Origin: Bacteroidota bacterium
GTDB lineage: Bacteria; Bacteroidota; Bacteroidia; Bacteroidales; Paludibacteraceae
NCBI GenBank assembly: GCA_030706465.1
Contig: JAUZOM010000022.1
Span: forward strand, 1-34,922
Direction: 5' to 3'
Length of the DNA: 34,922 nt
In this document: positions 6,569-34,264 of the stretch, piece after piece
Position numbering within the stretch: the stretch's first letter is position 1
Layout: each line of letters begins with the position of its first letter
The notes under the pieces: model-generated
Told to the model about the DNA's origin: nothing
Seen by the model: the letters and a program-made list of their open reading frames with translations, nothing else
Database searches by the model: none
Program-made: the position numbers and the translations under genes

Positions 6569-6588
6569 TAAAAGTTATATACAAAAAT

Positions 6589-7746: not shown

Positions 7747-7817
7747 ATAATGTGTTTTATGGTTATTTTGGTCGATCTTTTTAAAGCGCTTTTGGCCCGA
7801 AAAGAATATTCCCTTCT

Positions 7818-10190: not shown

Positions 10191-10195
10191 TTTAA

Positions 10196-12124
10196 TTATT
10201 TTTTTGTTTTATACTCCATCTCAGCCTTCATATTGATGTATTTATCGATATACTTGCTGTCATCACGCGTTACTGTAAGTCCTTGATCATCTCCCAGCTT
10301 TAAATCGGACGGCAACATAAAGGTTGTAGTAATATTTTTACCCAGAAAATCATTTGAAAATTTATTCCCCAAAATATTGACATTGCGGCAACCCTCTAAC
10401 AAAAAGTTAGACTTAATCCACGCGTAAGGCTTGTAGGTATATGTACGCGTCAGGGTGTTGTTGGTAAACTGTAGGTTGCCAACTGAACGGGCACGCAGGA
10501 CGGGGTAATCAAAAAAGTTAAACTTGTTATTTGTGATGATAATATTGCGATGATAGGGTAACCCCGTTTCTGTAGTCGGCCTGAATGAAGGCGTGATTGT
10601 GATTACAGCTTCTCCCCACTCCCATTTCCCGCCAAACTGAGATCCGGATGTAAGGCAATCATCAAACACATTATTTTGAATCTTCACGTTTTCAACGGCC
10701 CCGGATTCCAACCAAAACTGAAAGTCGCCCTCTATCAAGATCGCCGTACCGGCGGTGTTAAAATAGTTGTTTTCGATCACAACCCGCTTGGGGGTAGTGG
10801 CTCGAATACCGGTAGCCCGGTGGCGTTTCAGTATTTTGTTGTTGCGGACTTCAACTTCGGCCAACCACTCTGCACTTTCAATGGCATCATATTCGCCAAT
10901 AAATTCAGGTAGTTTTCCTTCAAACTCAATATGTATAATCCCGGTATAAAAATTCCCCTTATCCAACTTGACAGACTTCACCTTGCCCATGGCTGCACGC
11001 TGTCCTGTTTTATGATTGACAAACCAGACCTTATCTCCCGGCGCAAAGAAGGTCCCCTTCAAAGAGAGTACCTCCAAAGTATTTTTGTTGATTACATCGT
11101 TAACCAGGCAATACATATTGTGAACATTGATGTAGTCATCACCGCCGCCATTGTATTCGCTATTTTCTATTTTAATAAGACCCTTGCACCCTTTAATGTG
11201 AAAACCATCCGCCATATTTGAGAAAAGTCGTCCTTTAGATTTTCTGGCTATTATATCAACTTTATCAATAGAAATGTTCTCTGTGAAAGTTGCTTTAACC
11301 CCCATGCTACCGCCATGGTAGATCGTAACATTTTTCATCTTTACATCTTTACATCTGTCAAAATCGAAAGTGCACACGACATAGATACCATGATACATTG
11401 TAATGATATCACTTACATGAGGTTTGCGTTCCCATTTAAACGGGCCGTTAAACCGGATAGTCCCCGGAACTATTTCTGTGGCCTTTCCTTTAAAATAATC
11501 GCCTGCTGAATTATCGTGTGTACACGGAATAATTTTACCGGATGCCTTTTCAAACATTTCGTTGTCCTGGCAAAGATCCGTTCTCCATCCTTCGCCTGTA
11601 TAAAACACCTTCCCGTTATCAATTTCATAAGGATATTGCACTTTATCAATTTTGAGATCCACATAATTATCCGTAACCGTCATGAATTCTCCTTGTGTAA
11701 CCATCGGCCTATCCCAATCAATGGCAAAATTCGTAAAAGTGATGTTTTCACAATTATCAATTATAAAAGGAGCTGTCCGTCCATGCATGATGAATTCGGC
11801 TCCTTGCCCATCAATGGTTAAATTTTTGAGATTTCTGATAATAACACACTTATAGGTTGCCATAGAGTATCCTGCCGGTATATCAGCCAGAAAATCGTAA
11901 CGCCCTTTAGGGAAAACGATTGTTGTTGAAGAATAATTCTTTGCCTCTTCCAGCGCTTTCATGAAATATGGAATAGCATTCTCTTTTGTGTTGGGTTGTA
12001 GGCCGTATTTTGTAATATTAATTACTTCAGCCCTTGCTATTCCCAATGAAAAGAAGCATGCCAAGGCTATTAGCATACTTTTTATCATTGTACTTTTAGG
12101 TTTTTGAACTATCGAATTGTACAT
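10196..12124 (-). CDS. GH110 alpha-1,3-galactosidase-like beta-helix enzyme
   Basis: The 642-aa exported right-handed parallel beta-helix protein matches GH110. It has an opening INITKYGLQPNTKENA, the FPKGRYDF strand, LTIDGQGAEFIMHG (102-115) and the segment FTNFAIDWDRPMVTQG (130-145). Acidic clusters are NMADGFHIKG (D306) and GGGDDYINVHNMY (D329/D330). Their spacing and context fit the catalytic region of this inverting family, which removes terminal alpha-1,3-galactose from blood-group-B-like or linear alpha-Gal epitopes, or from carrageenan-type galactobiose. An alternative ATG at 12088 (MIKSMLIALACFF) gives a more compact signal peptide and may be the true start. It lies between GH2 and GH31 with gaps of 30 and 5 bp. 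It is the best clue that the substrate carries alpha-galactose. Confidence 0.85.
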   Translation of the reverse strand: MYNSIVQKPKSTMIKSMLIALACFFSLGIARAEVINITKYGLQPNTKENAIPYFMKALEEAKNYSSTTIVFPKGRYDFLADIPAGYSMATYKCVIIRNLKNLTIDGQGAEFIMHGRTAPFIIDNCENITFTNFAIDWDRPMVTQGEFMTVTDNYVDLKIDKVQYPYEIDNGKVFYTGEGWRTDLCQDNEMFEKASGKIIPCTHDNSAGDYFKGKATEIVPGTIRFNGPFKWERKPHVSDIITMYHGIYVVCTFDFDRCKDVKMKNVTIYHGGSMGVKATFTENISIDKVDIIARKSKGRLFSNMADGFHIKGCKGLIKIENSEYNGGGDDYINVHNMYCLVNDVINKNTLEVLSLKGTFFAPGDKVWFVNHKTGQRAAMGKVKSVKLDKGNFYTGIIHIEFEGKLPEFIGEYDAIESAEWLAEVEVRNNKILKRHRATGIRATTPKRVVIENNYFNTAGTAILIEGDFQFWLESGAVENVKIQNNVFDDCLTSGSQFGGKWEWGEAVITITPSFRPTTETGLPYHRNIIITNNKFNFFDYPVLRARSVGNLQFTNNTLTRTYTYKPYAWIKSNFLLEGCRNVNILGNKFSNDFLGKNITTTFMLPSDLKLGDDQGLTVTRDDSKYIDKYINMKAEMEYKTKK

Positions 12125-12154
12125 AATATGGGTTGAATGAATTCTCTTTCAGCT

Positions 12155-14998: not shown

Positions 14999-15008
14999 AT
15001 TTTCATTA

Positions 15009-17147
15009 TTACATTTTTACCTTCAGTTGATTGGCTTTCAACCAACCCTTTTCTAACACTTTTGATTTTGTTATCAGTTTTATTTTGAACAATTTAGTCT
15101 TCGTTTTAAGTGTTCCCGCAGTTTGTTTTACATCTATATTAACCATATTGTCTTTTGTTATGGCCGTAAAAGTCCACATGACGTACTCTCCTTTTTTATA
15201 ACCAAAGCCATCATTTGCATCTTCATACAAACTACCGGTAGCCCGCCCCTTTGCATCCAACGAAATGAATAATGTAAGCGAGTCCGTACTATACTGGGCA
15301 GTACTTTGAATCAGATTTCCGACCGGTACTATTGATCCTTCCCGCTGTAAAATATCTGCCTGGTATTTATCGTTTTTACTGTCCTCACCATTTACTGAAA
15401 TCGTCTTCCAGTTACCCTTGGGGATCAAATTATTTTTAGCCCACTTAGGTACAATCAAAAGATTGTCTCCCAATAAAAAGTTTTCGTCATCTGTACGTAA
15501 CTTCAGATCTTTTATATCAGCAAAAAATGTAGGTCGCATTACCGGCATGCCTGTTGTTGCAGCTTCATGGAACAGTGTATAGATATATGGCATCAACCGA
15601 TAACGTCTGTTAATTGCCGTTTGACATGCTTTTTCCACTTCAGGGCCAAAGGCCCATGGCTCTTTATTGTTTGTTCCTTTTGCAGCATGCCCCCTTGCAA
15701 ATGGAAAGAAGACACCCATTGACATCCATTGGGCAAATAAATCCGGGGATGTTTTATCGCCAAATCCGCCAATATCCGGACCGTTAAATGCTTGTCCCGA
15801 AAGGCCAAAATTAAGCGACATCGGTATCGACATTTTCATGTGCTCAACAGTTCCCAAATTGTCACCTGTCCATGTTGCACTGTACCGTTGGCTACCCAAG
15901 TAACCAGACCGGGAGAGTACAAACGGACGCTTATCAGGATTTGCTTTCAGTATTCCTTCCATGGTTGCTCTTACCATCAACATTCCATAGACGTTATGAT
16001 AGCGCAAATGACTTCCTTCGGGCAAACCACCTCCACCTCTGTTAATGTTATTCTCAGGCATTGTCCAGGTTGGCACATTGAAAACAGAAGGATCGTTCAT
16101 ATCGTTCCAGACACCATCAATCCCTGTAGCCATGAAATTTTTATATAAGCCGGACCACCACTCACGTGTCTTTGGTCTGGTGAAATCAGGAAAGACACAT
16201 TTACCCGGCCAAACCTCGCCAAGATAATCTTTACCTGTTGCATCCTTCACCCAATTATCCTGTTTGGTGCCTTCGTCATAAACAGAATATCCTTTTTCTT
16301 CTTTCACTCCCGGATCAATCATCCAAACGCCTTTCATTCCTCTTTTGTGGAGATAGTCATTCATCTCTGTCGGGTTCGGATATTTGGTTTTGTCGAAAGT
16401 AAATATTTTGAACTTGTCCATGTAATCAATGTCAAACCAAATCACATCACATGATATTTTATGATTAATGAAACCGTCGGCAACTTCTTTTGCCCTTGAA
16501 TCAGGCTCATACGACCATCGGCATTGCTGATAGCCCAGGCTCCAAAGCGGAGGCATATACATTTTCCCAATCAGACCGGATAAAGCCATAACTACCTCCT
16601 GTGGGGTTTTGCGTTCAATAATCACCACCCGAAAAGCAGGACCTTCCGAAATAAAACGAATGCTATCAGTCAGTATTAATTTCTGTTTCCAGGTATTATC
16701 GGCAATGATTCCAAATGCAGTACCATCCGCACGAACACCCAAAACCCATGGGTGCGTATGATACAGTCGTTTCCCATCGGCTCTCTTGTACCCCGGCGTA
16801 TCTGTATTCCATAGGTCTATTGTTGTGCCATTCCGCAAAAGAGGACCTGTAACTTCACCTGTACCGTAAAGACTTACACCCTCCCCAACAGGGAATGCTG
16901 CACAGGTCTCCTTTCCAACATGGTAAAAGGAGGGAACAAGTTTCCAACCTAAAGGAATTTCTCCAATAGCAGTAGGTTCTTTTTCAAATGCTAATGAGGG
17001 TAAGTTAGCACCCGGATTAAAATCAGAAGGATAGAAGATTGCAATCTGAGATCCAATAAGCTTATTCCGCTTCTCAATACTTTTACCGCCAGTAATTGCA
17101 AGAGATGCTACTAAAAGCATCACAATGGTTGCGTTGAATTTGTTCAT
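15009..17147 (-). CDS. GH31 alpha-glucosidase-like enzyme
   Basis: I take the start as the ATG at 17147 (MNKFNATIVMLLVASLA), because it begins a proper signal peptide. An earlier in-frame start at 17177 would add ten residues. The 712-aa protein has an N-terminal beta-sandwich with SLYGTGEVTGPLLRN, then CRWSYEPDSRAKEVADGF and WFDIDYMDKFKIFTFD. The nucleophile is D349 in GVWNDMNDPSVF, the acid/base D429 in ATWTGDN, and NGPDIGGFG follows. The WNDMNDP signature is typical of alpha-glucosidases, unlike the WWLDATEPE of the other GH31 in this operon. The two therefore probably hydrolyse different linkages. It is exported to the periplasm or surface. The 96-bp gap to the upstream gene shows no clear promoter. 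Confidence 0.92.
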   Translation of the reverse strand: MNKFNATIVMLLVASLAITGGKSIEKRNKLIGSQIAIFYPSDFNPGANLPSLAFEKEPTAIGEIPLGWKLVPSFYHVGKETCAAFPVGEGVSLYGTGEVTGPLLRNGTTIDLWNTDTPGYKRADGKRLYHTHPWVLGVRADGTAFGIIADNTWKQKLILTDSIRFISEGPAFRVVIIERKTPQEVVMALSGLIGKMYMPPLWSLGYQQCRWSYEPDSRAKEVADGFINHKISCDVIWFDIDYMDKFKIFTFDKTKYPNPTEMNDYLHKRGMKGVWMIDPGVKEEKGYSVYDEGTKQDNWVKDATGKDYLGEVWPGKCVFPDFTRPKTREWWSGLYKNFMATGIDGVWNDMNDPSVFNVPTWTMPENNINRGGGGLPEGSHLRYHNVYGMLMVRATMEGILKANPDKRPFVLSRSGYLGSQRYSATWTGDNLGTVEHMKMSIPMSLNFGLSGQAFNGPDIGGFGDKTSPDLFAQWMSMGVFFPFARGHAAKGTNNKEPWAFGPEVEKACQTAINRRYRLMPYIYTLFHEAATTGMPVMRPTFFADIKDLKLRTDDENFLLGDNLLIVPKWAKNNLIPKGNWKTISVNGEDSKNDKYQADILQREGSIVPVGNLIQSTAQYSTDSLTLFISLDAKGRATGSLYEDANDGFGYKKGEYVMWTFTAITKDNMVNIDVKQTAGTLKTKTKLFKIKLITKSKVLEKGWLKANQLKVKM

Positions 17148-17243
17148 CGTATTATTTTTAATGGTTTTACAAAACACAATAACCCTTTCAGAAATGGAAT
17201 TTTATGAAATGACTATTTTTTTGTAAAATCAACTTTTCCTCAT

Positions 17244-18467
17244 TCATTTTCGTCCGAGAAAAGGCACATAAGTTTTCACTGGTTTGTCTTCCTGAAATAA
17301 TTTTTTAAAATAGTTATAGGTGGGCGTGTATGATCCGTCGGCCCTCCTTAACCAATAACCTTTATACTGGTTATTGTCATGTACAGCGACGTGTGAACGT
17401 GTATTCTTTTCTGAAATTTCATTACAGTAAATCTGCCAATCAAAAACATAAACCACACCCCAGTTCAACAAATACTCTAATTGTGTTTTTACAGACAACA
17501 ACTGGACATTAGCTGTCGAATCACTGACTGTCACTGTATAAGGATAGCGTCTTTCTTCGTATCCAAACTCTCCAATCATGAGGTTATGCTCACCATACAA
17601 TTTACTGGGAGGCGTTTTGGTTTTGATATAATTTAAACGCTGTGTAATAGTATTCAGCTTATCCAACGATCTGCTTGAATAAGAAGAGTAAGAATAAAGA
17701 TCATTATGTGTGTGGGGCACAACTTCGTCAATGGCATAGGGAGGAGGCGTCCAATTATCGAAGACCATGTTCACCTCAAAGGCATTGGCAACAACAACCC
17801 CTTTCATACCAACTTCAGCACGAGCACGATCTACAGCATCCTGACGGGTATTTGTCCAGTCGATCATTCCCTGTATTGCAATTTTGGTTTCCTCAGCCGT
17901 ATGGCTTTTAGTGGCGAGATGCCCATCAGCCTCCCAGTTCTGGAATATAAAAGTTTTCCCTGTGTTCCTGTAGGTAGTCAACAGATATTTTGTTAATGCA
18001 TAATATTCATCAGACACCAACTTTATTTCGTCTTCTGAAAACCCGTCTCTCCAGTTTATTTTAATATTTCCATCTGTCATCTCGAGTGAATAAGTCTTGA
18101 AAGGCATATTAAAAAGCTCCTTAAAATAGAGGGTTTTAGCCAGGTCGACATAACTTAACCTATTTACATCGGTAGGCCATTTTGAATTGTATGAGTACTT
18201 ATTGGCAACATCATTAAACCAAACTTTTATACATTTCGATCCTAATTTTAATATTTCTTCAGCACCTTCTATGAGATAAGGTTTATTTGTGAAATTGTAT
18301 CTACCATTAACATGAGCAATTCCGACTACTTCGCTGACAGGTTTTAAGATTTCATTCGAAGGCCTGGAAACATTTTGTGCACATACTGAAGCCTGATCCA
18401 TAGAAATGAATCCAAAGAACAGAAGTACGATAAAGCTCAAACTTACGAGCTTAAATATTTTTTTCAT
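17244..18467 (-). CDS. Clan GH-A-like glycosidase, unclassified (paralogue 1)
   Basis: The 407-aa exported protein (signal peptide ending near VCAQ, 31) is probably a TIM-barrel glycosidase. FIFQNWEADGH (E179) has the form of a clan GH-A acid/base strand end. NLMIGEFGYEER (E300) has the form of a nucleophile strand end, and HTHNDLYSYSSYSSR resembles the intermediate strand. The opening GRYNFTNKPYLIEGAEEILKL with CIKVWF is also barrel-like. I cannot match it to a numbered GH family; GH5-like and recently created endo-glucanase families are candidates. It could be an endo-enzyme that cuts the main chain, since no other endo-acting enzyme is recognisable in the locus. The next gene upstream (18483-19730) is a close tandem paralogue, 15 bp away. 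Confidence 0.7.
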   Translation of the reverse strand: MKKIFKLVSLSFIVLLFFGFISMDQASVCAQNVSRPSNEILKPVSEVVGIAHVNGRYNFTNKPYLIEGAEEILKLGSKCIKVWFNDVANKYSYNSKWPTDVNRLSYVDLAKTLYFKELFNMPFKTYSLEMTDGNIKINWRDGFSEDEIKLVSDEYYALTKYLLTTYRNTGKTFIFQNWEADGHLATKSHTAEETKIAIQGMIDWTNTRQDAVDRARAEVGMKGVVVANAFEVNMVFDNWTPPPYAIDEVVPHTHNDLYSYSSYSSRSLDKLNTITQRLNYIKTKTPPSKLYGEHNLMIGEFGYEERRYPYTVTVSDSTANVQLLSVKTQLEYLLNWGVVYVFDWQIYCNEISEKNTRSHVAVHDNNQYKGYWLRRADGSYTPTYNYFKKLFQEDKPVKTYVPFLGRK

Positions 18468-18482
18468 GTGTATCTTATTTTA

Positions 18483-19730
18483 TTAAAGTTGTGTTTTGGG
18501 TCGTTGTGCTTTTACTTTTGCATTACCATTAAATAATCCTTTGAAATAATCGTAAGTAGGAGTTAAAGAGTTGTCAGGGCGTATAAGCCAGTAACCCTTT
18601 AGATTATTAATACCCAAATCTACTCCCCGGCTTTCGCTACTAAGTGAAATCTTCCCGGTACTATCTACTTCTTCATTGCAGTAAATCTGCCAATAAAATA
18701 TATAGGATACGCCCCAATCCAAAAGATATCTGAGTTGTTCCTTAACAGAATATAATTGAGTTTGACCGCTTATGTCGGTTATCGGATTAATGTAAGGCCA
18801 TGGGCCTCTCTCTTCATACCCAAATTCGCCGATCATTAGGTTGTAACTTCCATACATCTTGCTAGGTGGAATTTTTGTTTTGATATATTGTAACCTGCTT
18901 TTTATTGAGCTTAGGTCATTAAGCGCTCTGCTCGAGTATGAAGAGTATGAGTAAATATCGCAATGTGTATAGGGCGCTACCACATCTATCGTATAAGGTC
19001 CCGGATTGTAATTTGAAAGAACTGAATTTACTTCAAAAGCATTGGCTACTACTACACCCTGCAAACCAACTTCTTTTCGCGCCTGTGTAACTGCATCCTG
19101 ACGAGCATTTGTCCAATCAATCATTCCTTGTATTGCTTTCGGAACAAGTGCTGGATCCATATTATAAGGAGCAAGATGATTATCTGATTCCCAATTCTGT
19201 AGTATAAAAGTCTTCCCGGAATTTTTATAAGTTGTTAGTAAATATTTTGTAAGATCATACATTCTACTAAACACTAAGTTTTTTTCGCTTTCAGAGAGTC
19301 CATCTCTCCAATTTATCTTATCATCGTTTATTTCAAGGGAATATACTTTGAAAGGCATAGAAAATAGCTGCTGAAAATAGGGGGTTTGCGCTACCTCAAC
19401 ACAACTGTAATTAGCCACGTCAGAGGGCCACGAAGAATTATATGGATATTTTTTTGCAACATTCTCAAACCAGACCTTAATACATTTTGAGCCCAACTTA
19501 AGAATTTCATCAGCTCCTTCGATAAGATAAGGTTTTCCGGTAAAATGGTATTGCCCACCCGCATGACATACGCCCAATACCTCGCTTATATTAGTGGAGT
19601 CAATAGGAGCGACTAATTTACTCGAGTCAACAGTATTTTTAATTGAATCGGATTTTGATTTAGAACAAGAAATACCAAAATAAGCGAATAATAAGATTAT
19701 TCCCAGCAGTGCACTAATTCTATTCCACAT
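18483..19730 (-). CDS. Clan GH-A-like glycosidase lipoprotein (paralogue 2)
   Basis: The 415-aa tandem paralogue of the next gene shares the same order of motifs: GKPYLIEGADEILKLGSKCI, LYSSYS-type strands, ILQNWESDNHLA (E181) and NLMIGEFGYEERG (E302). Unlike its partner it is a lipoprotein: the N-terminus MWNRISALLGIILL ends in the lipobox FGISC (Cys22), followed by a Ser/Lys/Asp-rich linker to about residue 50. It is thus probably surface-anchored, while paralogue 1 looks soluble. This pattern fits a surface endo-enzyme paired with a periplasmic one, as in many Sus systems, but that is inference. The residues between the motifs differ considerably, so the duplication is not recent. A palindromic element separates it from the DUF3823 gene. 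Confidence 0.7.
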   Translation of the reverse strand: MWNRISALLGIILLFAYFGISCSKSKSDSIKNTVDSSKLVAPIDSTNISEVLGVCHAGGQYHFTGKPYLIEGADEILKLGSKCIKVWFENVAKKYPYNSSWPSDVANYSCVEVAQTPYFQQLFSMPFKVYSLEINDDKINWRDGLSESEKNLVFSRMYDLTKYLLTTYKNSGKTFILQNWESDNHLAPYNMDPALVPKAIQGMIDWTNARQDAVTQARKEVGLQGVVVANAFEVNSVLSNYNPGPYTIDVVAPYTHCDIYSYSSYSSRALNDLSSIKSRLQYIKTKIPPSKMYGSYNLMIGEFGYEERGPWPYINPITDISGQTQLYSVKEQLRYLLDWGVSYIFYWQIYCNEEVDSTGKISLSSESRGVDLGINNLKGYWLIRPDNSLTPTYDYFKGLFNGNAKVKAQRPKTQL

Positions 19731-19760
19731 AATATTACCTTAAGATACAAGAATAAAGAA

Positions 19761-19888
19761 ATGAGTATGTCCCAAAAGTTTATTTATGTTATCGGATTTC
19801 AGTAAGTGTATTAGGCTTACTTTTCTGACAAGTAGAGACTTGAAATGTTGAGTCTCTACGACATAACAGACTTTTGGGACGCCTCATT
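19761..19888. repeat. Palindromic MITE-like or cloverleaf element
   Basis: GTCCCAAAAGT (19769-19779) and ACTTTTGGGAC (19871-19881) are perfect 11-bp inverted repeats, with ATGAG (19761) and CTCAT (19884) as outer arms. Inside are two more stems: AGTAAG/CTTACT (19801-19821) and GTAGAGACT/AGTCTCTAC (19832-19859). Together they could fold as a cloverleaf. Ends of this kind (GTCCCAAAAG) are common on insertion sequences, so a non-autonomous element is possible. It could also act in the operon mRNA as a processing or attenuation structure. Confidence 0.75.
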
Positions 19889-19908
19889 ATTTTGAATAAT
19901 GCATTCGG

Positions 19909-20652
19909 TTAAAGTGTCAGAGCAATTTGAATAGGAGCCGAATAATTCCATTTTGGAGTACTTCCTGCAGAAGCATCTGTACTTTTCACTAATGCCCCTA
20001 CCCGAAACCAGAATTTTGTTCCTATCGGATATTTAGTGAAATTATTACTCTGTTTTGACAAGTCAATCTGAAGAGTGAATACCTCTGTTGCTCCAACAAC
20101 TCTTTTCACTGATAATGCAGCTGAATTAACGAGCTTAGAACCAAAGCTAACAACAGGATCAATGTGAGAAAATAATTGTACCTGATCAACACTTGCTAAG
20201 TTATTATGAAGTGTTTTCAATGTAAACGTAGCAATCACCATTGTGCCAACTTGTGTTAAACTTGTAACATTTATCTTGATATAGGGCTGAACAATAAAAT
20301 TTAACTCATTATCACCTTTTTTGATAACAAAATTCTTCACTGTATCAACATTCAGAAAGTTCGCATCTTTAATGAAAAAATTGTACACCCCCGGAAACAT
20401 CAAATTGTTACGATAAGTTCCATCTCCTTTGAGACCCATGGTCTGTTTTGTTGGTGAAGCAAAATTTCCTTGCTCCATATAGGTTATTTTAACGCCTAAT
20501 CCTGAGACATCTGATTGAACAGCAACTCCTGCAGAATCTACAATTTTTCCAAAAACAGCAGCGGTAGGCGGTGTGTAATTGTCCAATTTACATGAGAAGG
20601 AAAAAAGTAAGACAATGCTAATAGATAAATAAAATAATGATTTCATTTTCAT
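19909..20652 (-). CDS. DUF3823 lipoprotein of the Sus system
   Basis: The 247-aa protein has a lipoprotein signal ending in the lipobox FSFSC (Cys21) followed by KLDNYTPP. Residues about 32-125 form a beta-sandwich of the DUF3823/carboxypeptidase-regulatory type (AVFGKIVDSAG, GTYRNNLMFPGVYNFFIKDA). The second half is another beta domain ending in PKWNYSAPIQIAL. Proteins of this family follow susC/susD pairs and are thought to be surface glycan-binding partners like SusE/F. It has no catalytic signature. Palindromic elements lie on both sides, which may set its expression level separately from susD and from the enzymes downstream. A second ATG two codons later (20646) is an equally good start. 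Confidence 0.85.
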   Translation of the reverse strand: MKMKSLFYLSISIVLLFSFSCKLDNYTPPTAAVFGKIVDSAGVAVQSDVSGLGVKITYMEQGNFASPTKQTMGLKGDGTYRNNLMFPGVYNFFIKDANFLNVDTVKNFVIKKGDNELNFIVQPYIKINVTSLTQVGTMVIATFTLKTLHNNLASVDQVQLFSHIDPVVSFGSKLVNSAALSVKRVVGATEVFTLQIDLSKQSNNFTKYPIGTKFWFRVGALVKSTDASAGSTPKWNYSAPIQIALTL

Positions 20653-20671
20653 ATTTCTTTATATTTAAGAA

Positions 20672-20814
20672 GAGGCTGTTTAACTTTTTTCGGAGTTTTC
20701 AGAAATATGTATTCTCAATTGTGGATCATTTCAATTTTAAAACGATCTGCTTTCGCTGAGATAATATCTGATATTTCTATATTGTATTCCGTTTTTAAAA
20801 GTTAAACAGCTTCT
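20672..20814. repeat. Inverted-repeat element between susD and DUF3823
   Basis: GAGGCTGTTTAACTTTT (20672-20688) is mirrored by AAAAGTTAAACAGCTTCT (20797-20814), about 17 bp with one mismatch. A further CGGA/TCCG pair lies just inside. The roughly 108-bp interior is AT-rich and holds no gene. It has the shape of a MITE or an IS remnant; as RNA it would form a long stem in the operon mRNA. Confidence 0.75.
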
Positions 20815-20824
20815 GAGTTATTTT

Positions 20825-22765
20825 TTAATTATTTGGAATTAAGCCATTAGCTGCCGTACCTGGAATTCCAAGGTAATATTCGCTAATTGAACCTAAATAA
20901 GTCATTAACGTTTCTGTGGGCGACACGTCTCTGACAAAGAAGAAACTAGGCTTGGTTGTTGTCAGATCTAACATTGGACATAGTATTTTATGTTTAAATG
21001 AATTGTAAGTTGCTGCCAACTGACGTCTTCTAATCAAGTCCCACATATTAATACTACCTTCCATTGCAAATTCCACTCTTCTTTCTCTGATTACATTTTC
21101 AAGACTTACGGGAGCGGGTAACATGTAGGTGTGCCCTGCTCTTTGTCTGATAATATTTACAGCAATTGTAGCCTTATTTACAGCATCATCAGTAGTGTAG
21201 CCGCTCATAATAACAGCCTCAGCATAATTTAACAGCACCTCAGCATAACGCATATCAATAAAATCGGTAGTTACACTTCCCACAGTCGGGAGAGGAGTAT
21301 TACTCTCTTTGATGCCTTTTCTGATTAGAAAACCTGATTTCGAGTGCTGGGCATCATTGCCAAATCCTGAATATGAAGAACCCGTAGATCCTCCATATGA
21401 GTAATAAGTAACCCCATCTTTAACAGCGCTCCCATCCGTTAGATAAAGACTTGTACCATCTGGTTTTACAAGCCCTGCCTGAATATGAATGGTTGATTTT
21501 TTCCAAGTAGACATTGGAGTTATAAGCGTAGCAAACATTCTGGCGTCTTTACCTGCAAATATATCCTGAGGATTGTCATAGTGTATGTAACTAGCCTGTG
21601 TTCCTTTCTGAAAGACACTATAATTTAGCGAATTATCAAGTCTCGTATTGATTGGTACACTTGCACCTTTTGAGGTATACGTTTCATATGTATCAACTAA
21701 ATCAAGCGTTGGATTCATTCGTGCACCACTAGGCCACCCTGCATTTGTTTCTGCAGCACATTGGTAAAGGTCCCAGCTATGACCTGTCGTACTTCCCGGT
21801 AAAGTCCATCCTTTGGCAAAAATAACTTCCACTGCTGCACTGTTTGGGTCTTCGAATAGTTTCTGATAATTTACCTGTGCGTCTGCAGGACTTGCAGGGT
21901 GTGGCATATAGAGTCCAAATCCTGATGCGGCTATATCTTTAGTTGGATCGATAATATGTAGTGACGCTTGAATACATCTATTATAATATTGATTATCAAG
22001 ATCTGGGTATGAACTCAATGCTCCAATTAGTTTTGCATCTACCGCCTGACCAACACCGGTCACAGGATAGTGTGCCAATGATGCAGCATACAACGCTACT
22101 CTTGATTGCAAAGCCCAGGCTGCCCACTTTGTTGCACGTCGTGGTTGAGTTGGTTGCAAATATTTTGCAGCAGTATCACATTGATTAAGTATATAATCGT
22201 ACGTATCTTTCTCTGTTGCACGTTTTAATTTTAATACTGAAGGATCTCCTCCTGAATAATTCTGATTATCTTCAATGATAGGCACGCCACCATACCTTTT
22301 TACCAATGCAAAATAAGTATATGCTTTTAAAAATGCAACTTCACCAATCAATGATTGTTTTTGAGCTGCAGACATCACACTGGGTTTAATTGAAGGTATC
22401 GCTGCCTTAAGGGTATTAATATCACGAATGAGTACAAATGCAGGATCCCAATAAGAATATGACGCAACATTTTTAATATATGCGATATGCCATCCTTTGG
22501 AATATAAAGCATCAGGAGTACACATTGGAGGAAATAATCCATCGCATCCACTAAACTTGTTAAACCCAGAGCTTAAATCGAAGTTATAATCTTCGATGGG
22601 TAACTGATAATATATAGACGACAGATAGGCCTGGATGCCTTGAGCATCACTATACAAGGCATCTGATGTAATCTTATTTTTAACTTGTAAATCCAGGAAT
22701 TTGCTGCATGAAAAACACAGCATGGAAATTACACTTATAATTATTATACGGTTTATTTTTTTCAT
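20825..22765 (-). CDS. susD-like: SusD-family outer-membrane glycan-binding lipoprotein
   Basis: The 646-aa lipoprotein has the lipobox MLCFSC (Cys20) followed by SKFLDLQVKNK. The N-terminal region has the SusD/RagB TPR helices (LIGEVAFLKAYTYFALVKRYGGVPII, about 142-167). The C-terminal part ends in the typical DMRYAEVLLNYAEAVI and VIRERRVEFAMEGSINMWDLIRRRQ segments. It forms the hinged lid over its SusC partner and captures oligosaccharide at the cell surface. Only 12 bp separate it from the susC stop codon. Length is slightly above the usual 500-600 aa. An inverted-repeat element follows its stop codon, which could lower transcription of downstream genes relative to susCD. Confidence 0.97.
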   Translation of the reverse strand: MKKINRIIIISVISMLCFSCSKFLDLQVKNKITSDALYSDAQGIQAYLSSIYYQLPIEDYNFDLSSGFNKFSGCDGLFPPMCTPDALYSKGWHIAYIKNVASYSYWDPAFVLIRDINTLKAAIPSIKPSVMSAAQKQSLIGEVAFLKAYTYFALVKRYGGVPIIEDNQNYSGGDPSVLKLKRATEKDTYDYILNQCDTAAKYLQPTQPRRATKWAAWALQSRVALYAASLAHYPVTGVGQAVDAKLIGALSSYPDLDNQYYNRCIQASLHIIDPTKDIAASGFGLYMPHPASPADAQVNYQKLFEDPNSAAVEVIFAKGWTLPGSTTGHSWDLYQCAAETNAGWPSGARMNPTLDLVDTYETYTSKGASVPINTRLDNSLNYSVFQKGTQASYIHYDNPQDIFAGKDARMFATLITPMSTWKKSTIHIQAGLVKPDGTSLYLTDGSAVKDGVTYYSYGGSTGSSYSGFGNDAQHSKSGFLIRKGIKESNTPLPTVGSVTTDFIDMRYAEVLLNYAEAVIMSGYTTDDAVNKATIAVNIIRQRAGHTYMLPAPVSLENVIRERRVEFAMEGSINMWDLIRRRQLAATYNSFKHKILCPMLDLTTTKPSFFFVRDVSPTETLMTYLGSISEYYLGIPGTAANGLIPNN

Positions 22766-22777
22766 AATCTTTTCTTA

Positions 22778-25700
22778 TTAAAATGTAATATTCAATCCCA
22801 AATTATATGTCTTGGTCAAAGGATAGCCATATTCAGCGCCGTATTCACCTTCGCCCCTTTCCGGGTCGAAATCTTTGAGCAGCTTATCACAGAAGGTGTA
22901 CAGATTACTACCATTTACATAAATCCTGAGATTTTCAATTTTCAATTTGTGAAGATATTTTTGTGGAATGGTATAGCCAAACTCAAGTGTTTTGATTCTT
23001 AAGTAAGAAGCATTTCTTCTCCACAAACTATTTTCAAGGTGCACCGAACTGGCGCTGTTGATATCTCTTGTAGCAGGGAATGTTCCGGGTATCCATTGAC
23101 TATCTTCGTTAAAAGGATCTGCCATATGCCATCTGTCCATAAAATATTCAGGAGCATTCATTTGTGCATAGAAAGGAGTAGCATATGCTTCTTTTAACAG
23201 GATGGTATAATTTGCAGCACCTTGCATCAGAACGTTTACATCAAAACCTTTCCATCCAGCATTCAGGCTGATGCCATACTGCAAGGGTGGCTGTCCTGAA
23301 GAATAATCAACAGATCCGCCATTTGCACTTTGACCTGTCCAAAACATTGGAATCATATCTTTCGAGTCGATCAACCCATCACCATTTACATCCTTATAGA
23401 TAGGGTCACCGGGAAGTTGTTTAGAATTTCCTGCACCAGCATCCATAAATACAGGATAGCTTCTAATTTGGGCCAGACTAGTAAATTGACCTATTATTTC
23501 ATACCCCCATATTATGTTTTTGTTTCTATATGATTTATCGTTTCTCCACTTATCATAAGTTGATTGATAAGGACCTTGCTCAATATAGAGGTTCATAGAT
23601 TGAGAGATGTTCAAATTGGCATTAATACCATATGAAAAATCACCAATTTTATTGTTGTGTGAAGCCGAAAGTTCAATACCTTGAACCCTATCGGAGTTTA
23701 AATTTTCTTGAGGTAAAGTGGCCCCAAAAGTATTGGGCAAAGAACCGTTTCTATAAGCTAAAAGCCCCGTCCTATCCCTTCGGTAAAGGTCGAAGGTGAA
23801 ACCCAATTTGCCCTTAAAGACATCCAGGTCAAACCCCAGGTCAGTCGTTGTTGATTTTATCCATGTTAAATTTTGATTCACCAATACCGGTGATTGAACA
23901 TTTCCAGTCCACGTACCTTCGGTAAATTCATATCCTGTCGTTGCTCCTGTACGATAACCACTGACATACTGGAATGGAGATCCGGCATCCTCACCTGTAA
24001 GACCATACGACCCTCTTAATTTTAAATTATTAATGAAAGATATATTATTCTTAAAGAATTCTTCTTCCGAAACCCGCCATCCTGCTGAAACTACAGGGAA
24101 AAATCCCCATCTTTTTTCAGGAGCATAGCGGTAGCTGCCATCATATCTGAATGCAAACTCAACTAGGTATTTCTTTGCGTAATCATAATTAAGACGTCCG
24201 ACATAAGACATATTTGCAGTCTGACTTTCACTCCCATCTGTGGACTGATTGGTTAGTCCGGCCTGATTGATTACATCTACTGTGTAGAAATCATAATTTC
24301 TTACGGCTTTCAACATTGAACTGTTTGTTTTCCGCTGTTCAAACAATAATGTCGCTGAAATATTATGATTTTTTGCAATAACGGTATTATATAATAATTG
24401 TGCCTGTAAACTAAGCCTGTCATCGTAGTTTGTTACACCTGCAATATTGTTGCTGTTTGCTGTATTTGCGTAAACAGGATCCCCTGTCGTAGGGTCTGCT
24501 AAGTAAAATTTAATAGCCTTGTTAAGATATTTACTAATTTGAGAAGTATAGTCAAATGCAACTAATCCCCTAACTTTAAGCCCCTTGACAAAAGGCACAT
24601 CGTAAGTCAAACCTGCTGAAGATTGTAGAAAATTAGTTTTGAATGAATTATACCCAGCTAAATCAGTTCGTATTAAAGCAAGTGGATTTGTGCTTGAAGC
24701 TATATACGCTGGAAAGTCAGGGTCGTTATTGATATATGGTTTTTGAAATGGAGCTGCAGCTACCGTACCTTTGAAAATACCCATAAAGCCCCCTGCATTC
24801 TGGTTGTTGATATCACGACGCCCCAAAATGTTCAAATCCATTACCAGTCCTTTTGAAAGATTAACCGAAACATTTGATCTGACATTAATTTTCTCGTAAT
24901 TAATTGCATTTGTTTTCAACAAACCTCCATCTTTAGTATCGCCGATGCTTACAAAATAATTAGCCACATCCGTACCACCACGTAACGAAACGTTATGTTG
25001 CTGCTGTGTTGCATATGATTTCATTGTCTGATCATACCAGTTTACGCTTTCATAACCTGGTAATACACCATCTTTGTATTTTTTAGTTTCATCAGCCGAA
25101 TAGGTAGTCCCATTCCATAAATTTGATTTCAACTCATTCTGAAGATCAACCCATTCTGATCCGTTAACCATCCGCGGAACGTTTGTTGGAGTAGACCATC
25201 CCATATTTCCATTGTATGAAACTTTTAATTGGCCCTTCTCGCCCTTCTTTGTGGTGACAATTACGACACCATTATCCGCACCAATACCATAAATAGCTGC
25301 TGAACCATCTTTTAATACTGAAATACTTTCGATATCATTAGGATCTATGCGTTGAAATTCATCAGCTCCACCTCTAAGCACACCATCTATTACGAAAAGA
25401 GGTGTCCCGAATCCCCTTATATTTATTGCTGTAGTCGTGGCACCCGGCAAACTGTTGCTTTGCCTGATCTGAAGTCCTGCTACTTTACCCTGTATGTTTT
25501 GAATCAGGTTGGGACTCCTGCTCGACAAAATATCTTTTGATTTGATACTTGAAATTGCACCTGTCAAAGTTGCCTTTTTTTGAATACCATAGCCAACTAC
25601 CACGACTTCATCCAAAGTCCTACTCTCTTCTTTGAGAATAATTGATAATGGCGTTTCTTTCACAACCAACTCGGTTGAAATATAACCAAGAAAACGACAG

Positions 25701-25909
25701 ATCAACGTTTTTCCTTTATCTACGTCGATAGTAAACCTGCCGTTTAAATCAGTAACCACACCCTTCTGCGTTCCCTTCACAAGTATGGTTGCTCCGATTA
25801 TGGGTTGCCCCTTCTCGTCATTCACTGATCCATTAACCTTAAGGACTTGAGCAGAAACGCTAAACCCCAGAAAGAATAATAGAATTAAAAAAGTCAATAA
25901 TTTTTTCAT
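22778..25909 (-). CDS. susC-like: SusC-family TonB-dependent transporter
   Basis: I place the start at the ATG at 25909 (MKKLLTFLILLFFLGFSVSAQ), which opens with a signal peptide. A TTG-initiated extension to 25945 lies too close to the promoter. The 1043-aa protein has an N-terminal carboxypeptidase-regulatory-like domain (NGSVNDEKGQPIIGATILVKG), the conserved LDEVVVVGYG stretch before the plug and a plug domain with QNIQGKVAGLQIRQ and FVIDGV. A 22-strand barrel follows, ending in the aromatic LNITF. There is no N-terminal anti-sigma-interacting STN domain, so control is probably not by an ECF sigma/anti-sigma pair. This agrees with the divergent AraC-type regulator. It imports oligosaccharides across the outer membrane with SusD. 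It is the first gene of the long minus-strand operon. Confidence 0.97.
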   Translation of the reverse strand: MKKLLTFLILLFFLGFSVSAQVLKVNGSVNDEKGQPIIGATILVKGTQKGVVTDLNGRFTIDVDKGKTLICRFLGYISTELVVKETPLSIILKEESRTLDEVVVVGYGIQKKATLTGAISSIKSKDILSSRSPNLIQNIQGKVAGLQIRQSNSLPGATTTAINIRGFGTPLFVIDGVLRGGADEFQRIDPNDIESISVLKDGSAAIYGIGADNGVVIVTTKKGEKGQLKVSYNGNMGWSTPTNVPRMVNGSEWVDLQNELKSNLWNGTTYSADETKKYKDGVLPGYESVNWYDQTMKSYATQQQHNVSLRGGTDVANYFVSIGDTKDGGLLKTNAINYEKINVRSNVSVNLSKGLVMDLNILGRRDINNQNAGGFMGIFKGTVAAAPFQKPYINNDPDFPAYIASSTNPLALIRTDLAGYNSFKTNFLQSSAGLTYDVPFVKGLKVRGLVAFDYTSQISKYLNKAIKFYLADPTTGDPVYANTANSNNIAGVTNYDDRLSLQAQLLYNTVIAKNHNISATLLFEQRKTNSSMLKAVRNYDFYTVDVINQAGLTNQSTDGSESQTANMSYVGRLNYDYAKKYLVEFAFRYDGSYRYAPEKRWGFFPVVSAGWRVSEEEFFKNNISFINNLKLRGSYGLTGEDAGSPFQYVSGYRTGATTGYEFTEGTWTGNVQSPVLVNQNLTWIKSTTTDLGFDLDVFKGKLGFTFDLYRRDRTGLLAYRNGSLPNTFGATLPQENLNSDRVQGIELSASHNNKIGDFSYGINANLNISQSMNLYIEQGPYQSTYDKWRNDKSYRNKNIIWGYEIIGQFTSLAQIRSYPVFMDAGAGNSKQLPGDPIYKDVNGDGLIDSKDMIPMFWTGQSANGGSVDYSSGQPPLQYGISLNAGWKGFDVNVLMQGAANYTILLKEAYATPFYAQMNAPEYFMDRWHMADPFNEDSQWIPGTFPATRDINSASSVHLENSLWRRNASYLRIKTLEFGYTIPQKYLHKLKIENLRIYVNGSNLYTFCDKLLKDFDPERGEGEYGAEYGYPLTKTYNLGLNITF

Positions 25910-25962: not shown

Positions 25963-25970
25963 CAAATATA
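25963..25970 (-). promoter_or_regulatory. Putative -7 box of the susC operon
   Basis: On the minus strand this reads TATATTTG, a perfect TAnnTTTG. It lies about 54 bp before the susC ATG at 25909 and 40 bp downstream of the shared TCAAA element. Confidence 0.65.
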
Positions 25971-25990
25971 AGATTCACATTTTCGTTGCT

Positions 25991-26026
25991 CTTGTTATTT
26001 TACGCTGATCTTTGATACTATTTTGA
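25991..26026 (-). promoter_or_regulatory. Shared operator upstream of susC
   Basis: Read on the minus strand it begins TCAAAATAGTATCAAAG and ends AACAAG. By my count 29 of 36 bases match the element at 33937-33972, without gaps. Two TCAAA half-sites are 11 bp apart, one helical turn, as in AraC-family direct-repeat sites. The position relative to the -7 box is the same as in the phosphatase operon. Confidence 0.6.
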
Positions 26027-26132
26027 ACATATTTTTTTTATATTACTTCATTAATTTGATTTATAGATCGATATATAATAATATAAACACAATACTTTAT
26101 TGTCCTAAAATGATGTTATATTGAACTATTAC

Positions 26133-26164: not shown

Positions 26165-27034
26165 ATGAGTAAAGTACAGCGCGAAGTTACACCACTTGAT
26201 AAGGAAGACCTATTTATATTACTCGATCATAAACATGCTAAGTTTGATTACCCACTTCATTTTCATTCTGATTATGAACTGAACATGGTTCTCAATACCT
26301 CGGGCAAACGTATTGTTGGCGACACGATTGAACCATTTGAAAACGAAGATCTTGTTTTGGTCGGTCCCGGCTTACCTCATGCATGGAAAGCACCATCAAA
26401 CGTTGACACACACGTAATAACCATCCAGTTTCAAGAAGCAATAAACAGTTCATTTCTCTTGGAAAAACGCGTATTCGCACCTATTCGCGAATTACTTGAG
26501 CGGTCTAAAAGAGGCATATTTTTTAGTGGAAAGAGCTTTAGCAATATTCGTCAAAAACTATTATTACTAAGCCAGTCACGCGGCTTTAATACCTCTTTGG
26601 AATTTTTCAGTATTCTCAATGACCTGGCTACCGCTCAAGAACAACGGTTGATCGCCAGTCCGTCTTATGACAGTTCATTATTAATGCGCGACTCAAGAAG
26701 CAGAAGAATTGAAAAAATATGTAAGCACATTGAAGATAATTTCAGCAGGGAAATTACACTTGTTGAGATAGCTGAATTGGTCAATATGTCAGAATCGGCC
26801 GTAAGCCATTTTTTCAAAAAAAGAACAAGCCGTACTTTCATTTCTTATCTCACAGAGGTCCGAATCGGTTATGCGGCCCGTTTACTTGCAGAAACGACAC
26901 AAAGTATTTCCGACATTTGTTTTCAATCCGGCTTTGAGAATTTGTCAAATTTTAACCGAACCTTCAAAAAGCACAAACACCAAACGCCCTCTGAATACCG
27001 GATTGATCTTCAAAAAATCATCACTAAATTCTAA
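26165..27034 (+). CDS. AraC-family transcriptional regulator
   Basis: The 289-aa protein starts at the ATG (MSKVQREVTPL). The in-frame TTG nine codons earlier lies inside the -7 box. The N-terminal half is a cupin sensor domain (YPLHFHSDYELNMVL and VGPGLPHAW, with metal- or ligand-type His residues). The C-terminal half (about 185-285) is a double helix-turn-helix domain: HIEDNFSREITLVEIAELVN, SESAVSHFFKKRT, then DICFQSGFENLSNFNRTFKK and TPSEYR. It has no membrane segment, so it senses a cytoplasmic ligand, possibly a sugar released by the imported glycan. It is divergent from susC across a 255-bp region with promoters for both sides. It is the obvious candidate to bind the shared TCAAA element. 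Confidence 0.93.
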   Translation: MSKVQREVTPLDKEDLFILLDHKHAKFDYPLHFHSDYELNMVLNTSGKRIVGDTIEPFENEDLVLVGPGLPHAWKAPSNVDTHVITIQFQEAINSSFLLEKRVFAPIRELLERSKRGIFFSGKSFSNIRQKLLLLSQSRGFNTSLEFFSILNDLATAQEQRLIASPSYDSSLLMRDSRSRRIEKICKHIEDNFSREITLVEIAELVNMSESAVSHFFKKRTSRTFISYLTEVRIGYAARLLAETTQSISDICFQSGFENLSNFNRTFKKHKHQTPSEYRIDLQKIITKF

Positions 27035-31701: not shown

Positions 31702-32568
31702 TTAATTGATCTTCACCTCAACCAGAACCGGTAGATGATCGGAAGGATAGAAAAGGCCAAATGAATCAGACAAAACGCCATGCCTTAAAACTTCAACTTT
31801 CGGATTGATAAAGACAAAGTCTATTTTAACAGGCATTACCTTTACGTCGAACCCACCGCTGGTGCCTTCAGGGCCATAGGGTAGCGTTTGCGATTTATCC
31901 TGCGCATCGTTCAACTCTTTCAGAAGCATTTGAATAGGCAATGACTTTTTTGTCAGGTTAAAATCTCCGGTAAGGATTAACGGCTGGTTTTCCTTATTAA
32001 TCTCTTTAATAGATTTCAGGATGAGTTTTGCCGACTCTTCACGTGCCTTGTTTCCCATATGATCAAAATGGGTATCAAAGACATAAAAGGTCTTCTGTGT
32101 AATCTTATCTTTCAGTTTTATCCAGGTAACAGTTCTGTTGCATTGTGCATCCCAACCCCGACCCGGTCTATCGGGAGTCTCGCTGAGCCAGAACATTCCG
32201 TCTTTTTCTTTTGTGAATCTGCCTGTCTTATAAAAAATAGCCATGTGTTCACCAAGTCTTTTACCATTATCACGACCAACGCCTACATGCGCAAAATCGG
32301 GAAAACTCTTGACCAGGTCGTCCATTTGTTCCGGAAGGGCTTCCTGCACATTGAAAATATCTGCCTGGTGAAATCTCAGTAACCCGGCAACCTTATCTTT
32401 TCTAAGGGGCCAGGCATTTACACCATCATCGGGGGTGTTCATTCTGATATTATAAGTAATCACATTAAAAGGTGCATTTTTAACACCTTGACCCATAGAT
32501 GTATTGCCGAATAGCAATATCATCATTATTCCGGGAATCACAAAAGAAAACGTTTTTGATAGCCTCAT
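31702..32568 (-). CDS. Exported EEP-family phosphohydrolase
   Basis: The 288-aa protein of the endonuclease/exonuclease/phosphatase fold has a signal peptide ending near SMGQG (28). Family motifs are complete: ITYNIRMN (N40), FNVQEALPEQ (E76), FDTHFDH (165-170), LTGDFNL (D202, N204), KIDFVFI (D250) and YPSDHLPV (D277, H278). These bind magnesium and catalyse phosphodiester or phosphomonoester cleavage. Exported members of this type are frequent in Bacteroidota PULs and are less likely to be nucleases than sugar- or lipid-phosphate hydrolases; the substrate is unknown. The gene follows the purple-acid-phosphatase-like gene by 37 bp and must share its promoter. It is one of three exported phosphoesterases of unrelated folds in the window. 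Confidence 0.9.
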   Translation of the reverse strand: MRLSKTFSFVIPGIMMILLFGNTSMGQGVKNAPFNVITYNIRMNTPDDGVNAWPLRKDKVAGLLRFHQADIFNVQEALPEQMDDLVKSFPDFAHVGVGRDNGKRLGEHMAIFYKTGRFTKEKDGMFWLSETPDRPGRGWDAQCNRTVTWIKLKDKITQKTFYVFDTHFDHMGNKAREESAKLILKSIKEINKENQPLILTGDFNLTKKSLPIQMLLKELNDAQDKSQTLPYGPEGTSGGFDVKVMPVKIDFVFINPKVEVLRHGVLSDSFGLFYPSDHLPVLVEVKIN

Positions 32569-32605
32569 TTCATTATTTATTTTAAAAAAATAAAGTGGTT
32601 TATCA

Positions 32606-33853
32606 TTATTTAATCAATTTGAAATAATCAATTTTCACCCCGTGATTATCGTACACATCATACCGGATACTATTGCCTTCAATCATCATGATGGCAAAGT
32701 TATACATTTTCACCTTAGAAGTATAGACCATAGAAGGCATGTCACTGCCCCCGGTTCCGGTTGGTTGTCCTCCTGCAGAACCATTGGTAATATATACCGT
32801 TCCTGCCGGATGCTGATAAATATGATCATCTTTTTGCGGCAACACCTGATCATTGCGGATAGCTGTGTGCCTTTCATAAACATGACGATGGCCAGCCAAA
32901 CAAAGGTCCACCTTGTATTTGTCAAGCAATGGCGCTAACCTTTCATGCCATCCGTCAACCTGACTCCAACCGAATGAATAAAGCGGATGGTGTAAATAAA
33001 GGATTATCCATTTGATATTTTTATCTTTCCGTGCTTTTGATAAATCATCTTCCAGCCACCGGTATTCCAAGGATCTTTTGGCATATGCAAAATTAGTAGC
33101 TACAGCAGCATCTTTCTCACTCTGTCCTGAATTGACAGCCACAAAATGCGTGTTCCCATAATTGAACGAATAATTAATAGCACGGCCTGGCAGGTTGATG
33201 AACTCATAGTAAACAGGGAATGGCTTTTGAAACCCGCTGTCGGCTGCGTTATTACTTACGTCATGATTGCCAGGAACATGCATGAAAGGAGCTATTGCAT
33301 TTACGGGTTGCGCACACCTGAAAAAGCCCTCCCACTTAGCTGCTACGGGGCCGGCGTTTACAATGTCACCCATATGGATTGTAAACTGAATGGGGTAACG
33401 CTGCAGCTGTTGTACGATAGTGTCGGTCTGTTCAAAATGGGTATTGAATTCATTGTCCTGTGTATCTCCCCAAACGCCAACGACAAATTTGTCCTGGCTT
33501 CCTGTAGCAGGTGCCGTTCTGAACCTATAAACGTTGCTCCATCCCTCTTCGGCCGATCCACACTTGTAATAATAGATAGTATTGGGTTTTAGTTGCGTTA
33601 GAGTGGCTTTGTAAATATTCACTTTGCCCTTATAAGAAAAATGACTGATCGCTTTTTGCGAATGAGACAGTCGATCATCCGTACCGTACATAACCATACC
33701 TTCATTTAGCTTACTGCCCCACCATGTAATAGCCATTTTTGTTGACGTTTCATCTTTGTCATTCCAGCTAAGATGTACGCCCTGTGTCTGTGCAAAGGTG
33801 AATGAGAAAAGTAAAAATGTTGATGCCACCAAAAGCCTTACAAATTGTTTCAT
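32606..33853 (-). CDS. Purple-acid-phosphatase-like metallophosphoesterase
   Basis: The 415-aa exported protein has a signal peptide ending at FTFAQ (21). An N-terminal fibronectin-III-like domain (VHLSWNDKDETSTKMAITW to about 113) is characteristic of purple acid phosphatases. Metal-binding motifs follow in order: VGVWGDTQ (D130), IHMGDIV (D163), VPGNHDV (N197, H198), LYLHHPLYS (H288/H289) and AGHRHVYER (321-329). It probably hydrolyses phosphomonoesters in the periplasm or at the surface. It is the first gene of a two-gene minus-strand unit with the EEP gene. Its promoter carries the same upstream element at the same spacing as the susC operon, which ties it to the PUL rather than to general phosphate starvation. 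Confidence 0.92.
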   Translation of the reverse strand: MKQFVRLLVASTFLLFSFTFAQTQGVHLSWNDKDETSTKMAITWWGSKLNEGMVMYGTDDRLSHSQKAISHFSYKGKVNIYKATLTQLKPNTIYYYKCGSAEEGWSNVYRFRTAPATGSQDKFVVGVWGDTQDNEFNTHFEQTDTIVQQLQRYPIQFTIHMGDIVNAGPVAAKWEGFFRCAQPVNAIAPFMHVPGNHDVSNNAADSGFQKPFPVYYEFINLPGRAINYSFNYGNTHFVAVNSGQSEKDAAVATNFAYAKRSLEYRWLEDDLSKARKDKNIKWIILYLHHPLYSFGWSQVDGWHERLAPLLDKYKVDLCLAGHRHVYERHTAIRNDQVLPQKDDHIYQHPAGTVYITNGSAGGQPTGTGGSDMPSMVYTSKVKMYNFAIMMIEGNSIRYDVYDNHGVKIDYFKLIK

Positions 33854-33936: not shown

Positions 33937-33972
33937 CTTGATTTTTTATGTTAAACTTTGATATTATTTTGA
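33937..33972 (-). promoter_or_regulatory. Shared operator upstream of the phosphatase operon
   Basis: On the minus strand it begins TCAAAATAATATCAAAG and ends ATCAAG. It aligns without gaps to 25991-26026, and the offset to the -7 box is identical. The TCAAA half-sites are again 11 bp apart. Confidence 0.6.
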
Positions 33973-34264
33973 GGATTTTGGAAAAAAACAGCCAAGAGAC
34001 TTTGGGAGTATTCGATAAACATTGGGGTTGAAGTATCGGTCATTTCGGACCTCCATGGATGGAGATTCAGCTTGAAAAATCATTGAACGAATTCGCAATG
34101 GCCCTTCGGCTCCGCACTGGGACGGGTCGTCGTAGAACCTCATTTTTTTGTAATTTTAGCCTTTAATTTCCCCACTCGTTTTGATATTTTAATAGGGATT
34201 CCAGCCATTAGAATATAATTTTTCAAAAAAGAGACCGGCAATAAAAAATTATAAATATTTAATT

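Follow-up and report, generated by a model that had tools for sequence, protein, structure and literature searches.

Candidate operators of an AraC-type one-component regulator at a fixed distance from the promoters of a susC operon and a phosphatase operon in a Bacteroidota gene cluster

The 34,922-nucleotide contig JAUZOM010000022.1 of a Bacteroidota bacterium (Paludibacteraceae), which was analysed over its full length and is termed the window, carries two similar elements on its minus strand, one upstream of a susC operon and the other upstream of a phosphatase operon. This raises the question of whether both operons are controlled by one regulator and, if so, by which one. The original prediction had described a shared element at identical spacing, and the sequence bears this out: 29 of 36 bases are identical without gaps (26026-25991 versus 33972-33937), the first T of the element lies 56 bp before a perfect TAnnTTTG box in both places (55 bp when counted from the C of the half-site), and the stretches between element and box are unrelated upon sequence comparison. 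Element e1, the putative operator of the susC operon (25991..26027), consists of half-site 1 (CAAAATAGTAT, 26025-26015) and, 21 bp further on, a degenerate half-site 2 (26004-25994). From the C of half-site 1 to the first base of its -7-type box (TATATTTG, 25970-25963) there are 55 bp. Element e2, the putative operator of the phosphatase operon (33937..33973), is built from half-site 1 (CAAAATAATAT, 33971-33961) and a degenerate half-site 2 (33950-33940), and the C of this half-site is likewise 55 bp from the start of its -7-type box (TACATTTG, 33916-33909). The inner structure had been read as two TCAAA half-sites 11 bp apart. This reading had to be given up, as relatives have kept a different unit, CAAAATARTAY, which is followed 21 bp downstream by a degenerate copy.

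A scan of the 4,338,497-base genome with the composite motif CAAAATARTAY-N44-TAnnTTTG resulted in matches without mismatch at e1 and e2 only. The same holds for the 17-base core TCAAAATARTATCAAAG, for which six further places in this genome have 2 mismatches. A dispersed repeat of the REP or MITE type, which requires many genomic copies, was rejected, as there are only two exact copies. Base composition leads to an expectation of about 0.016 exact composite matches per genome, but the weight of this value is limited by the fact that the pattern was partly chosen on e1 and e2 themselves. When up to 3 mismatches are allowed, the composite (105+117 matches in the whole genome) is hardly commoner than a backward control (103+101). 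Within the window alone, the 17-mer is found twice at up to 3 mismatches, which is unremarkable because 18 of 100 shuffles reach this number. For these two reasons, the case rests on the comparison with other genomes.

Promoters of the housekeeping sigma factor of Bacteroidota have the consensus of a -7 box TAnnTTTG and a -33 TTG. At both e1 and e2 the -7 box is perfect, and no TTG is found 16-27 bp before the box. The start codon follows the box after 53 bp in the case of susC and after 55 bp in the case of the phosphatase gene.

The probable susC operon (4902..25909, minus strand, gaps of 5-178 bp) codes for SusC, SusD, a DUF3823 protein, two proteins without Pfam domain, a GH31 and a GH2 protein, a GH110-like protein with GLAA-B domains, another GH31 protein, a Gfo/Idh/MocA protein and a sulfatase. 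The phosphatase operon (31702..33853, minus strand) has two genes with a gap of 37 bp, one purple-acid-phosphatase-like (32606-33853) and under e2, the other from the endonuclease/exonuclease/phosphatase family (31702-32568). On the plus strand, a GH130 gene (1955-2992) and a sodium:solute symporter gene (3079-4683) together cover 1955..4683, and both are frequent neighbours of the regulator in relatives. The combination of GH130, GH2, GH31, GH110-like and sulfatase proteins suggests that the substrate is a decorated mannose-containing glycan, without fixing which one.

Two further observations concern the contig itself. A GH2-like gene (28635-31563, plus strand) is split in two frames (28635-30029 and 30037-31563), and a related GH2 gene is found in a single frame at 12155-14998. 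In addition, the contig ends (1-187 and 34736-34922) are near-identical (184 of 187 bases) and both look like parts of one gene; at the contig start, this gene copy has an in-frame stop at about base 328. This could be a tandem copy, reflect strain variants or be an assembly effect.

Between susC and the phosphatase operon, the window codes for an AraC-family one-component regulator of 289 aa (26165..27034, plus strand), which is the proposed binder of e1, e2 and perhaps of a third site, e3. A C-terminal double HTH is recognized by Pfam (PF12833, E 1.5e-23; PF00165, E 6.2e-15), and by Foldseek this region matches AraC-type DNA-binding domains in the PDB. Pfam shows no N-terminal domain at E 0.001. 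The AlphaFold model (mean pLDDT 88.5, pTM 0.75) has strands between residues 17 and 89 and matches the regulatory domains of RhaR and AraC (Foldseek E 5.1e-6 to 6.5e-4), and the N-terminus is predicted to be a beta-rich, cupin-like ligand/dimer domain. Over the whole length, the best structural matches are other AraC-family proteins, namely ToxT, CsvR and Rns. The NCBIfam AraC model gives 70.7 bits, compared to a cut-off of 208 bits. The protein and its sites have the characteristics of AraC/XylS one-component systems, which are a double HTH, a predicted cupin-like N-terminus and, judged by sequence only, a direct repeat of about 21 bp beside the promoter. Two other identities were rejected. 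The 289 aa contain only HTH families and no sensor, kinase or receiver domains as in an HTCS, and in SusR-like systems the site centres of the direct repeat are 67 or 77 bp apart according to the portion of the account that covers them (PMC3878776), compared to a spacing of 21 bp here.

Relatives of the regulator were fetched as 80 named loci, nearly all titled Bacteroidota (L122 is titled Planctomycetota), and the best homologues in the same genus show 52, 49, 41 and 40% identity. With at most 1 mismatch, CAAAATARTAY occurs within 250 bp upstream of the AraC homologue in 18 of the 23 closest loci (3.3 expected from shuffles), and YAAAATARTAY is found without mismatch over the same distance in 20 of the 57 further loci (0.98 expected). 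The distance to the box is also fixed. Among 110 sites with at most 1 mismatch, 15 have their half-site at exactly 55 bp from a TAnnTTTG box and 17 at 34-35 bp, and any other distance is represented by at most 3 sites. In 33 aligned sites from relatives, a second copy of the half-site, which is degenerate in the window, follows 21 bp downstream. The difference of 20-21 bp between the two distances corresponds to two helical turns and would fit one operator with two half-sites, of which the distal one may have been kept in the clade of the window and the proximal one in others, mostly Sphingobacteriaceae and Chitinophagaceae.

A half-site at 34-35 bp from the box, usually GATAAAATARTAT, was noted for L106, L115, L116, L118, L123, L124, L126, L130, L131 and L134-L138. 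Loci of this type are mostly from Sphingobacteriaceae and Chitinophagaceae, and their recognition helix carries Arg instead of His. In L094 and L110, Arg is combined with a spacing of 55 bp.

A maximum-likelihood tree of 81 homologues, on which the labels 55 and 34 bp were assigned by hand from site distances, places the window protein within a starred clade of 17. In this clade, a core that deviates at no more than 1 position, with a perfect box at 55 bp, is found next to the regulator in 13 of 16 relatives. L060 and L065 have a site with 2 mismatches, that of L060 being located before susC at about 3 kb from the regulator. The closest homologue, L059, has a site with 3 mismatches, which, as in the window, lies in the space that separates its AraC gene from a divergent susC-like gene, and which reaches 36.2 on the weight matrix described below although it is outside the training set. 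Conservation is observed directly in that all 16 clade relatives have a site beside the regulator or before a nearby susC (with a perfect box in 13 of them and two or three mismatches in the other 3). No candidate of fitting spacing (at most 3 mismatches, within 350 bp of the gene) was found in 28 of the 80 loci, and all of these but L060 are from outside the clade of the window.

In 48 genomes of the genus, 92 composite sites were found with at most 1 mismatch, compared to 50 for the backward control. Sixteen of the 92 have one of 37 AraC homologues at a distance of no more than 20 kb, where at most 0.91 are expected (14 of 90 when the two sites of the window are left out), and 5 of the 6 exact composite sites are near an AraC homologue. 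Single matches with 1 mismatch are often due to chance, given that the backward control is as high as 50 and that 76 of the 92 have no detected AraC homologue nearby. Most of these 76 may be chance matches. In a sample of the class, the exact composite TTCAAAAWARTAY-N44-TAnnTTTG has one match each in 5 of 395 genomes, compared to 1 match of the backward control. The four matches besides e1 have no AraC homologue within about 1.5 kb and were set aside as probably due to chance.

The weight matrix has 68 columns and was derived from 31 sites of other genomes and none from the window. The pattern of core plus box, with no more than 2 mismatches, was used to pick the training sites; two of 33 sites selected in this way were dropped as they do not start with TT, and the TT count (31 of 33) predates this step. 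As a result of this selection, independent evidence comes solely from TT, from the second half-site and from the bases that follow the box. Contigs are shared by some of the training loci (L064 with L039/L040; L069 with L041/L042), and identical sites were kept once. When both strands of the window were ranked, e1 came first (23.4) and e2 second (20.6). None of 1500 dinucleotide shuffles reaches 20.6, while at least one of a separate set of 200 does (maximum 23.7). The two sites remain first and second without the box columns (19.3 and 15.0), where the best of 200 shuffles has 22.5. The training sites have a leave-one-out median of 43.9, and the scores of e1 and e2 with the box fall far short of it. 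A -33-type TTG at 21-25 bp before the box occurs in 2 of the 31 training sites. Autoregulation of the AraC gene is not supported, as the fourth-ranked match (26074, plus strand, score 1.0) misses the register of the TATATTTG box ahead of AraC by about 4 bp.

From these comparisons we infer, with good confidence, that e1 and e2 are operators to which the AraC-type one-component activator encoded at 26165-27034 binds, and that they constitute a local PUL regulon. The earlier proposal that the AraC protein beside susC serves both operons is retained in its main part, being backed by the conserved site, its spacing and its place, by a matrix blind to the window, and by residue 215 as described below. 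The view of the phosphatase operon as a distant target is not retained: this operon is within the same contig-long 35-kb gene cluster, which points to local PUL control.

This regulon may have a third member. Ahead of the GH130-symporter operon there is a degenerate candidate site, e3 (1857..1921, plus strand), with half-sites CAGAATATCAT (1859-1869) and CCAAATACTAC (1880-1890), the first being 55 bp before the box TACTTTTG (1914-1921). It ranks third on the matrix when the box is included (1859, plus strand, score 4.8), but with 235 of 1500 shuffles as high, this is not significant alone. The half-sites can be aligned with the region before GH130 of G041 and G042; the surroundings are poorly conserved, and the regulator beside GH130 is only about 40% identical there and is found on another tree branch. 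Because of the box spacing of 55 bp, the alignment with G041 and G042, and the occurrence of the symporter in the neighbourhood of the regulator in 13 of 21 named loci that were compared, e3 is a plausible weak site.

In relatives, sites precede a symporter gene, susC and genes for secreted proteins, one of which has an acetylesterase domain. Several sites occur per cluster, as in G032 (three within 25 kb) and G040 (four within 20 kb). By its sites, the window would be a local regulon of the same kind. The proteins downstream of the three L041 sites have an acetylesterase domain, Por secretion tails, YDG and weak matches to fn3, and no phosphatase is among them. A homologue of the purple acid phosphatase was found neither in 47 genus relatives (E <= 1e-60) nor among the best up to 4 candidates per genome in 394 class relatives (E <= 1e-90). 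Without a close homologue in the genomes searched, there is no orthologous confirmation of e2, and the phosphatase operon may therefore be an addition to the regulon that was made in this lineage.

The genome contains a second member of the subfamily, a paralogue on contig C26 which is 37.5% identical to the window regulator and has its own site 55 bp before its box. This site reaches 23.8 on the same matrix, so that the matrix alone cannot separate the two regulators. A distinction is provided by residue 215 in the recognition helix. In 30 loci with good sites, this residue is His in 14 and Arg in 16, and the base at -2 of the half-site is T in 13 of the 14 His loci (A in the other) and G in all 16 Arg loci. 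This correlation between protein and DNA is directly observed, but as the 51 Arg proteins coincide with one 51-row clade on the tree, it corresponds to one evolutionary change. Exceptions occur among weaker candidate sites with 2-3 mismatches (for example in L083, where His goes with G, and in L085, where Arg goes with A). The window protein has His215, with T at -2 in e1 and C in e2, while the C26 paralogue has Arg and its site has G. The residue thus seems to fit the flanking base, which disfavours the paralogue as the binder of e1 and e2.

Sites resembling the operator and located 55 bp before a box were also seen at C26:2936 (L142), C327:3390 (L141) and C79:35424. They have AAAGTATCATA and a GGATRAA second part in common and probably belong to the C26 AraC paralogue.

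The alternative that survives best is that e1 and e2 are real AraC-type operators which are bound by another protein, most likely the C26 paralogue or the DNA-binding domain of an HTCS. The score and spacing of the C26 site would agree with this, there are 19 first-look candidates in the AraC search of the genome, and motifs of Bacteroides HTCS are direct repeats with an average spacing of 21 bp in the part of that work drawn on here (PMC3878776). We nevertheless consider it improbable: besides the mismatch of residue and base, e1 lies between susC and the AraC gene of the window, which is the placement of the L059 site, and the susC site of L060 has a TATCAAA extension in common with e1 and e2.

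In the proposed mechanism, each operator is a direct repeat with half-sites 21 bp, or two helical turns, apart, of which the promoter-distal one is the strong CAAAATARTAY and the promoter-proximal one the degenerate copy. Measured to TAnnTTTG, the distance is 55 bp from the start of the distal half-site and 34 bp from that of the proximal one, and the latter ends 23 bp before the -7 box. Neither promoter has a TTG around -33. The contact that is thereby lost would most likely be provided by the regulator, whose proximal subunit would be seated directly ahead of the polymerase site, and transcription would be activated in this way. By general promoter rules, this layout is that of a class II activator of the AraC type, which stands in for a contact that the promoter lacks. 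The N-terminal domain would bind an inducer, probably an oligosaccharide released from the glycan of the PUL, and in the induced state the susC operon and the phosphatase operon would be turned on together, perhaps along with the GH130-symporter operon via e3.

The sign of regulation could be the opposite, with the regulator binding e1 and e2 but acting as a repressor, or in both ways. AraC itself can play both roles, and comparative data give the geometry of binding, not its sign. However, a site just upstream of the promoter, in fixed helical phase and with the -33 TTG nearly always absent (also from all but two training sites), fits activation and not occlusion, so that we regard repression as a shade less probable still than another binder. 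Finally, it is most improbable that the similarity of e1 and e2 is due to chance or to a copied promoter fragment without a regulator, as AT-rich sequence, the shuffle count of the 17-mer in the window, similar gaps from box to start codon and partly alike leader regions are outweighed by the window-free matrix that picks out both sites, by the same spacing in 13 clade relatives and the scores of sites in relatives, which together have already largely refuted this explanation, and by the unrelated sequence between element and box, which is unexpected of a recent copy.

Work on PUL control has mostly been concerned with hybrid two-component systems and sigma/anti-sigma pairs, and to our knowledge, operators have seldom been established for the one-component AraC proteins that are encoded next to PULs. 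Known counterparts are AraC and RhaS/RhaR from E. coli, which are sugar-responsive one-component activators; the AraC operator has direct-repeat half-sites 21 bp apart beside the promoter. The predicted structure of the window regulator matches the regulatory domains of RhaR and AraC as well as AraC-type HTH domains, but unlike these proteins it is paired with a -7 promoter of Bacteroidota. The HTCS regulons of Bacteroides, as far as described in the relevant sections of one account (PMC3878776), are similar in the control of susC/susD PULs by AraC-type HTH domains, in predicted operators that are direct repeats averaging 21 bp, and in being mostly local. They differ in that an HTCS is a membrane sensor with kinase and receiver, while the window regulator is a one-component protein of 289 aa, and neither CAAAATARTAY nor a fixed distance of 55/34 bp to TAnnTTTG was found in those sections. 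An AraC-type regulator, FG28_RS02325, is present in a marine beta-mannan PUL of Muricauda sp. MAR_2010_75, likewise with a GH130 phosphorylase, a symporter and SusC/D; the likeness to the window is one of gene content, and no operator was found in the portions of that account on which this comparison draws (PMC9860051). Titles and abstracts, together with parts of PMC10766802, PMC12125979 and PMC11253607, did not reveal this operator or its geometry for the subfamily, in a search that covered mainly open literature.

It is conceivable, and we put it forward tentatively as a reading that has slightly less than even chances when taken as a whole, that a widespread AraC subfamily of Bacteroidota has an operator code of its own which we have not found described. 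Its members would recognize a YAAAATARTAY half-site 21 bp from its partner, the strong half-site being 55 bp before the -7 box in the clade of the window or 34-35 bp before it in other families, mostly Sphingobacteriaceae and Chitinophagaceae. His or Arg at position 215 would pair with T or G at -2, by which paralogues in one genome would be insulated from each other. The regulon would be local to the PUL, and new operons, such as the phosphatase operon, would enter it via one correctly spaced site. Since operator, box distance and the rule linking residue to base can be read from sequence, regulons of this subfamily would be predictable in uncultured Bacteroidota, and the window, if this holds true, would show how an accessory operon joins a PUL by the gain of one spaced site.
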